From Seleniivibrio woodruffii (GTDB lineage: Bacteria > Chrysiogenota > Deferribacteres > Deferribacterales > Geovibrionaceae), in contig NZ_SMGG01000006.1 in the NCBI RefSeq assembly GCF_004339245.1, positions 124,001-188,000 on the forward strand: a stretch of DNA of 64,000 nucleotides, written 5' to 3'. A program made the translations under genes and the position numbers. The notes beneath the pieces are model-generated. The model was not told where the DNA came from. It searched no databases and worked only from the letters and a program-made list of their open reading frames with translations. How positions within the stretch are numbered: the first letter of the stretch is position 1; each line of letters starts with the position of its first letter. This document shows positions 22,389 to 30,061 of this stretch, piece by piece.

Positions 22389-22796
22389 TTTTCGCCCTCT
22401 CAATGGAACTTATGCCTATAATATCGGCATTTTGAGGGTTTTGATTACATAAATATGGATTTCGGGCTGTGTCCGTGGCAGTCGCATGCAGTTGTAAGGC
22501 AGGAATGTTTATTTCAGCCGACGAAATATGATGGGATTGCCGCACCTGCTTACGCAGGTTCGCAATGACGCTTTTCCCACATCACAGTAAAGACCAAACG
22601 TCATCCTGAGGCAAAGCCGAAGGATCTCGTATTGAGACTCTTCACTACGTTCAGAGTGACTAAAACAGAAACCTATTTCTGTTTAGATGCTAGCAGAACA
22701 AGGATGATGCGATGAGAGGGCTGCGAGCATACTCAAATGTATGTGAGCAGTTCCGAAGAGCATCAGACGCCGTAATGCGACGCATATAAACAGAAA
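22389..22796. other. Intergenic region with dispersed repeats and the 123-bp element
   Basis: No gene is seen. From about 22527 to 22661 there are blocks of the dispersed family (GGATTGCCGCACC, TTCGCAATGACG, CGTCATCCTGAGG, TTCAGAGTGAC). From 22675 to 22797 lies copy A of the covarying hairpin element, which ends exactly at the rsmI-like stop codon. A nine-base hairpin AAACAGAAA / TTTCTGTTT (22663-22684) overlaps its left arm. Confidence 0.6.
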
Positions 22797-22797
22797 T
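22675..22797. repeat. Covarying hairpin repeat, copy A (123 bp)
   Basis: Outer arms ATTTCTGTTTA (22675-22685) and TAAACAGAAAT (22787-22797) are perfect inverted repeats. Inside come TAGCAGAACAAGG (22691-22703), nested stems GATGC/GCATC and GGCTGC/GCAG-tt-CC, then GAG-CATAC, a six-base loop, GTATG-TGA, and TAATGCGA (22773-22780) near the right end. Copy B at 28813-28936 has the same order, spacing and single-stranded blocks with different but still paired stems. Confidence 0.75.
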
Positions 22798-23468
22798 CAG
22801 CGGGAAGTTCCGGCAATAACAAGCACAAACGGCTTCTTAACCTTCTCCGGAATTGCCGCCGCAATCTCCTTTGCCGTACCTCTGTAGGTTATTTCATCGG
22901 GCATACCCAGATTGAACGACATGCTCATGGGGCGGCTGATGAATGAAACCTCTTCGATAAGCTGATTTGCGTGGTAGGGTCTTTCGAAAACCACAACCGT
23001 GTCTTTGTTGTTCATCACCCTGTCCATGAATTTCTTACGCAGAACAACGTCCTTGGGCGGGAAGCCTGCGAAGTAGAATCTTTCCGAGAAGTATCCGGAA
23101 ACGGACAGAGCCGCTGTTATTGATGAAGGGCCTGGAACGGAGATAACATTGAAACCCGCTTCCCATGCCTTGTTTACAAAATCATATCCGGGATCGGCAA
23201 CACAGGGCGTACCGGAATCGCTCATCAGCAGCACGTTTTCGTGCCCCATGGCTATTTCCAGCAGAAAATCCTTGTCCCTGTCCAGAGAGTGTTCGTTCAG
23301 AAGCATCTGCTCCCTGTCACGAAAACCTGACGCCGCGAGCATTCTGCCCAGATTTTTTTTATCCTCGCCTATGACGAGGGTACATTTTTCAACCACTTCG
23401 AAAAGGTACGCAGGCGAACCTGAGTAGTCGCCGCTGATGCTGGTTCCAGCTATGTAAAGTGTTTTCAT
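22797..23468 (-). CDS. RsmI-like tetrapyrrole-methylase-fold SAM methyltransferase
   Basis: This 223-residue enzyme has the RsmI order of motifs: an N-terminal YIAGTSISGD, GEDKKNLGRML near residue 34, NEH, MSDSGTPCVADPG near residue 81, and PGPSSITAALSVSG near 110 followed by FAGFPPK. RsmI 2'-O-methylates C1402 of 16S rRNA. The protein is about 60 residues shorter than standard RsmI and lacks the C-terminal extension, so it may be a divergent RsmI or a relative with another RNA target. ATG 23468 overlaps the serS stop by four bases. The stop codon coincides with the right arm of the hairpin repeat. Confidence 0.8.
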   Translation of the reverse strand: MKTLYIAGTSISGDYSGSPAYLFEVVEKCTLVIGEDKKNLGRMLAASGFRDREQMLLNEHSLDRDKDFLLEIAMGHENVLLMSDSGTPCVADPGYDFVNKAWEAGFNVISVPGPSSITAALSVSGYFSERFYFAGFPPKDVVLRKKFMDRVMNNKDTVVVFERPYHANQLIEEVSFISRPMSMSFNLGMPDEITYRGTAKEIAAAIPEKVKKPFVLVIAGTSR

Positions 23469-28666: not shown

Positions 28667-28812
28667 AAAAACCTCATTTCGGGTCATTAGCTGATTATTA
28701 GCATATCGGCGGACAGGTGTAAATTTGATTTAACTGCGGCAGGTAATTGTGACAAGTTGAGGGAAGATGGGATTCTTCGTTTCGCTCACTATCATAGAGT
28801 GACAGGAACTTC

Positions 28813-28936
28813 TTTACCTTTTAGAACCGAGCAGTTCAAGGCGGAGGATAAAAAATATTTTGAGCGTACAAATAAGTACGTGATAAATATTTTTTACTCC
28901 GACAACGAAGAAATGCGAAGTGTTATAAAAGGTAAA
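28813..28936. repeat. Covarying hairpin repeat, copy B (124 bp)
   Basis: Outer arms TTTACCTTTTA (28813-28823) and TAAAAGGTAAA (28926-28936) are perfect inverted repeats. Inside are GAGCAGTTCAAGG (28829-28841), an 11-bp stem AAAAAATATTT/AAATATTTTTT, then GAG-CGTAC, a six-base loop, GTACG-TGA, and AAATGCGAAG (28911-28920). It lies between the CsgG-like gene and the ilvC terminator. Confidence 0.75.
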
Positions 28937-28958
28937 AAAAGGGGAGCCGAAGCTCCCC
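28934..28958 (-). terminator. Terminator of the ilv operon
   Basis: GGGGAGC-CGAA-GCTCCCC (28941-28958) followed on the minus strand by seven T; it begins seven bases after the ilvC stop. Confidence 0.9.
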
Positions 28959-28964
28959 TTTTTC

Positions 28965-30061
<1,097 letters not shown>

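Follow-up and report, generated by a model that had tools for sequence, protein, structure and literature searches.

The window analysed here, a stretch of 64,000 nucleotides from Seleniivibrio woodruffii, contains two short sequences, copy A and copy B, which share a layout but differ in their paired stems, and the question is what kind of element they represent. Both are 123-125 bp long, and each forms one rod-like imperfect hairpin. The initial annotation had described them as two copies of one folding element. Both lie where it placed them and fold as described, with z-scores against shuffles on the plus strand of -7.6 for copy A and -7.4 for copy B; none of 200 shuffles folded as well for either. 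A and B both contain the common sequence blocks, the GAG-stem-TGA centre and stems that differ yet stay complementary. The edges used below (22674-22797 and 28812-28936) are covariance-model edges. Two models were used: R1, built from Seleniivibrio sequences only, and R2, built without any enterobacterial sequence and containing no ERIC. The features of the two loci are:

22674-22797, plus strand: ERIC-like element copy A, core type A (R2 95.4 bits, E 1.2e-26; R1 110.8 bits)
22676-22686, plus strand: left outer arm of copy A, ATTTCTGTTTA (approximate; from the sequence and alignment columns 2-12)
22725-22746, plus strand: central hairpin of copy A, GAGCATAC..GTATGTGA, the equivalent of the ERIC centre
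22787-22797, plus strand: right outer arm of copy A, TAAACAGAAAT, overlapping the stop codon of the minus-strand ORF 22797-23468 by one base
22797-23468, minus strand: tetrapyrrole methylase ORF (PF00590, E 7e-17), its stop codon abutted by copy A
28812-28936, plus strand: ERIC-like element copy B, core type B (R2 100.9 bits, E 2.3e-28; R1 121.6 bits)
28813-28823, plus strand: left outer arm of copy B, TTTACCTTTTA (approximate; from the sequence)
28861-28882, plus strand: central hairpin of copy B, GAGCGTAC..GTACGTGA
28926-28936, plus strand: right outer arm of copy B, TAAAAGGTAAA (approximate; from the sequence)
28937-28964, minus strand: intrinsic-terminator-like hairpin with a T run, separating copy B from the end of the ketol-acid reductoisomerase ORF (from the sequence; placement class 30-55 bp)
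28965-29981, minus strand: ketol-acid reductoisomerase (ilvC) ORF (KARI_N E 2e-74, KARI_C E 1e-65)

A second dispersed repeat, unrelated to the element and of the type GTCATTCTGAG..GAAGGATCTC..TTCGCT..CAGAGTGAC, lies immediately left of copies A and B (22598-22660 and 28768-28808) and also left of many other element copies in the genus. Another short dispersed repeat of about 40 bp, near 30013-30056, has 85-95% identity to dozens of places in the sister genomes. The sequence AAACAGAAA left of copy A is probably the remnant of a tandem or decayed neighbour.

Distribution of the element

BLAST located 14 and 22 places in the own genome, and model R1 found 51 copies there, mostly intergenic and dispersed. 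The concern that only two copies exist, or that additional ones break the stems, is therefore removed. Three sister species hold 41-51 copies each and a fourth holds 2. Of three genomes from one other genus of the host family, two have 19 and 4 copies and one lacks the element; the model search gave no copies in the remaining two genera. A degenerate pattern applied to named genomes matched Seleniivibrio, Deferribacteraceae UBA6793, many gut Clostridia, Alicyclobacillus, an Alicyclobacillaceae isolate and Methylotenera, and these relatives outside Seleniivibrio reach 48 copies per genome. In the Methylotenera order the element is present in 34 of 120 genomes, with at most 24 copies each. The ERIC-like folded core is present in at least four bacterial phyla; the conserved part is the core, while the ends are not conserved. 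At some single sites (L266, L242, L119 and L233), three or four units follow one another in tandem at a period of about 120-125 bp. The pattern had no match among the IMG/VR viral sequences, giving no sign of viral carriage there, and no plasmid relatives of copy B were found.

Kinship with ERIC and other repeats

ERIC is a textbook enterobacterial repeat. It was considered here because a Methylotenera copy matched enterobacterial DNA across its centre. With a 44-bp ERIC centre as probe, E. coli copies turned up in 5375 of 5426 genomes. The GAG-stem-loop-stem-TGA centre noted in the initial annotation is the ERIC centre (GAGCTTAC..GTAAGTGA). When R2 was run over 254 kb, comprising 250 kb of E. 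coli K-12 and three enterobacterial plasmid loci, it returned exactly five matches, all of them ERIC copies (38.6 to 27.3 bits, E 1e-8 to 4e-5). The copy behind ybhI scored about 30 bits with R2 and 21-24 bits with R1. There is a CAAGG-like block 25-27 bp before the central hairpin and an ATGC-like block 27-30 bp after it in copies A and B, Clostridia, Alicyclobacillaceae, Methylotenera and ERIC, these distances being constant within three bases across all lineages. The family and ERIC (IRU, RU-1) are thus alike in length, rod-like palindrome, intergenic dispersion, the centre GAGnnTAC..GTAnnTGA with its G.T closing pair and tandem G-A, the equal spacing of the flanking blocks and, in several ERIC copies checked, antisense placement at gene 3' ends.

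There are also differences. ERIC is a 127-bp MITE with a function in Yersinia (PMC2229807, PMC10969869), and its ends are a conserved 7 bp with TA (PMC2229807). This terminal inverted repeat is absent in Seleniivibrio, where the outer arms differ by site and the core types are exchangeable, and its absence counts against identity with ERIC. Because a model free of ERIC recovers the ERIC copies and the blocks are collinear, but the 7-bp TA ends are missing, we call the elements ERIC-like, a distant branch and not strict ERIC. Copies A and B are very probably ERIC-like (IRU/RU-1) non-autonomous palindromic mobile repeats. The hosts differ as well: ERIC is placed in Enterobacteriaceae and Vibrionaceae (PMC2229807, PMC10969869, the latter a recent review), while the present family occurs in Deferribacterota, Clostridia, Alicyclobacillaceae and Betaproteobacteria. 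A description of ERIC outside Gammaproteobacteria was not found in the literature searched, which left out most subscription papers. Beyond the descriptions of ERIC found there are the outer stem bound to its site with exchanged cores inside, the tandem units sharing a stem and the 3' end abutting a stop codon of the opposite strand. A folded core in at least four phyla also provides a large set of relatives in which the ERIC transposase may be sought. In E. coli K-12, the ERIC copy behind ahpC (L384, 39510-39635) has the outer arms AATTTCC..GGAAATT, unlike the usual ERIC ends, and site-specific arms may occur within true ERIC too.

The initial annotation had matched the elements with no attC, REP or riboswitch core, and the tests made agree. 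The high-copy genomes have no Y1 transposase, no Rfam family exceeded its gathering score in the window, and a relaxed threshold gave only chance-level matches. The kinship with ERIC had been overlooked. Its opposition of a selected fold to an insertion repeat proved a false contrast, since a dispersed palindromic mobile repeat with a conserved fold is both at once. REP/BIME sequences are likewise small dispersed palindromes at gene ends, but their units measure 20-40 bp and are linked to RAYT transposases, whereas Y1_Tnp (PF01797) is found in none of the four high-copy genomes (G000, G009, G010 and G011). Integron attC sites belong to gene-cassette arrays, while the element copies are dispersed singly or in short tandems. 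A Klebsiella element (L381) was matched by both R1 and R2 and may resemble the centre of BoxC. BoxC of E. coli, at about 56 bp, is much shorter than the elements described here. The betaproteobacterial repeat element BRE is reportedly about 90 bp long, dispersed, tandem and intergenic, with variable copy number (PMC3110155); by description alone it is alike as a dispersed, tandem, intergenic repeat of Betaproteobacteria, but it differs in length. Geobacter multicopy sequences were discarded as an earlier description, as the papers that mention them give no matching sequence in their text.

Gene ends, site-bound arms and exchanged cores

Read in element orientation, 59 copies have a gene 3' end no more than 10 bp from their right end, and one has it that close to its left end. 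Gene calls at the Seleniivibrio and Clostridia loci are plain ORFs and could err in individual cases, but the asymmetry is firm. These right-hand cases comprise 12 of 30 copies in G000, 8 of 21 in other Seleniivibrio and 39 of 95 in Clostridia and other copies. Another 20 right-hand gene ends lie at 30-55 bp, including those of 8 of the 30 G000 copies, and where read in Seleniivibrio a terminator hairpin intervenes. Copy B is one of these: on the ilvC strand, the stop codon is followed by the terminator and then by copy B. The left flank is unconserved, and the left-hand gene mostly points away from the element. The antisense 3'-end position was also found for the ERIC copies behind ahpC, ybhI and speB; two other ERIC copies inspected have no gene end at the corresponding position. 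These observations suggest that members of the family generally lie antisense at stop codons. A replication-strand bias in the orientation of the elements was put down to gene orientation, given their antisense position behind genes. At gene 3' ends that have only a degraded element or none (L203, L275, L277 and L285) lies another repeat, 'AAAC..CAGGATG..GTTCGTGGAATGA..GAACGTGAGCG..CGGGATT'.

Core types A, B and C co-occur in one genome. Orthologous sites of sister species often hold different core types within a conserved outer stem. At the site of copy B, G000 has a type B core in the arms TTTACCTTTTA/TAAAAGGTAAA, and G011 has a type A core in TTTGCCTTTTA/TAAAAGGCAAA. In 15 orthologous-site pairs, which are drawn from fewer sites and hence not fully independent, core identity is 0.53 and arm identity 0.80, compared with an arm identity of 0.616 in 1612 non-orthologous pairs with equally different cores. 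Over all non-orthologous pairs, arm and core identity are uncorrelated (r = 0.01). Tandem units of unlike core type that abut exactly have arms in common. The outer stem of about 10 bp stays with the chromosomal site, and core types are exchanged inside it. The exchange would probably begin with insertion of a new unit beside the old one, duplicating the arms, and end with the later loss of one unit between arms. That core types change while the arms stay gives a testable clue to the way the hairpins move. Many sites are shared between species and give no sign of recent movement within the genus. Clean empty sites were not found among the orthologous sites, where L058 alone is informative: the sister species have a plain terminator there (GGCGGTC-loop-GACCGCC), and the G000 element has the arms TTGGTGGTTA/TAACCGCCAA, with the register to the gene end kept.

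The arms could therefore be read as the stem of a terminator, the hairpins being mainly bidirectional transcription terminators with the core inserted into, or evolved within, the terminator loop. This would agree with arms that belong to the site, with Clostridia arms that read AAAACGGCG..CGCCGTTTT and with the register match at L058. However, that match is seen at one site only. About a quarter of the G000 copies lie farther from the gene end, past a separate ordinary terminator where read, and several copies of the 30-55 bp class, such as copy B, have AT-rich arms. We consider this explanation unlikely.

For mobile ERIC-like repeats, a tentative extension, which we hold to be possible but doubtful, is that the core is a cassette, entering fixed palindromic sites and being exchanged there. 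The arms would then be the target and the core the mobile part, moved by a hairpin-recognising enzyme common to several phyla. The sites might perhaps be terminator or site-specific arms in Seleniivibrio and Clostridia, and MITE inverted repeats in Alicyclobacillaceae; we put this forward with the same reserve.

The selected fold and the probable movement of the element

In 30 of the own-genome copies, standard pairs fill 91.1% of cells, and both sides have changed in 23 of 35 pairs. Covariation scores 0.452, compared with 0.17 in shuffles and no more than 0.16 in slid controls, and this bears out the earlier claim of conserved pairing with changing sequence. An alignment of 65 sequences from four phyla, fitted to the model and so biased towards structure, gave 90.4% pairing, 30 of 35 pairs changed on both sides and a covariation score of 0.633. 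The rod-shaped hairpin of about 123 bp has an almost fixed core, AGCAG-tNC-AAGG ... GAG-NNTAC-loop-GTANN-TGA ... AACG/GACG ... AATGCG, and arms that are nearly perfect palindromes of free sequence. The GAG/TGA flanks, for which tandem G-A pairs had been anticipated, do align as tandem G-A mismatches beside the closing pair of the central stem, which is G.T in 99 of 105 Seleniivibrio and 90 of 104 other sequences. In the arms there are 72 G.T versus 19 A.C in Seleniivibrio and 45 versus 17 in other lineages. This excess indicates that the selected fold belongs to the element strand, as RNA or single-stranded DNA. The folded strand is antisense to the neighbouring gene.

Such a strand preference, with the wobbles and the tandem G-A motif on the element strand and conservation across phyla, would also be expected if the copies were dispersed genes for independently transcribed, trans-acting structured small RNAs. 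Folded single-stranded DNA explains the preference equally well, though, and no common promoter is visible beside an unconserved left flank whose gene mostly points away. In addition, no Rfam family matches, and mobile DNA better accounts for the precise abutting to stop codons, for the tandem units and for MITE copies that have target duplications, which makes small-RNA genes a very improbable explanation. The 'skipping-rope' RNA motif was dropped, with no Rfam match and no paper on the motif found. Maintenance of the pairing by template switching in quasi-palindromes, without selection on the fold, is also highly improbable: it could produce nearly perfect palindromic arms of free sequence, but it would erase the specific mismatches, bulges and almost invariant G.T kept by the core in several phyla, and at one arm position a T.G wobble is the commonest state (43 of 100).

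For a mobile repeat placed antisense at gene ends, the read-through RNA of the neighbouring gene would carry the complementary hairpin at its 3' end. By analogy with ERIC in Yersinia, where an effect on mRNA decay is described (PMC2229807), this hairpin may act passively on mRNA end formation or decay, and a mobile hairpin would be tolerated at gene ends.

Concerning the mover, a search for a mobile-element partner gene, as had been proposed, found only housekeeping families recurring beside the copies and no mobile-gene family, and a neighbouring partner was rejected. RVT_1 (PF00078) occurs only in G000 among the four high-copy genomes and is not shared. Neither a Y1 transposase nor a reverse transcriptase co-occurs with high copy number, and both were set aside as movers. 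In Seleniivibrio, no general target-site duplication and no terminal ends of the type found in Alicyclobacillaceae isolate I2511 were detected; an apparent target-site duplication or third arm copy was accounted for by tandem or decayed neighbours. Judging from the Alicyclobacillaceae relatives, the element would spread in trans as a DNA hairpin, by means of a transposase encoded elsewhere.

The core in I2511 is enclosed in a short element bounded by the inverted repeats GTGTGTGTCCGGAAAGGGG..CCCCTTTCCGGACAACCTCT, with 4-bp duplications such as ATAA, AATA, TATA and TATT, and the core-carrying copies are near-identical at most places read. Ends of this type occur about 75 times per genome, also on core-less elements of about 50 bp. 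The end AGAGGTTGTCCGGAAA is found at a contig break, terminating what appears to be a longer insertion sequence whose copies seem to interrupt contigs. An insertion sequence with the same terminal repeats is the likely mover in Alicyclobacillaceae. Core-less MITEs of this family (L347, L361 and L363) and core-carrying ones (L353, L365 and L369) have identical ends. In the core-carrying MITE the core is flanked on either side by the direct repeat GGGTC, which indicates that the difference between filled and core-less forms was made by deletion or insertion. In Alicyclobacillus herbarius (L348, L352, L360, L366 and L368), the same MITE ends carry another palindromic module, GGGCTATCGCCCGGCCTAAACGG..GGCGACCAGGCCC, either by itself or next to the ERIC-like core, and this MITE is a modular element.
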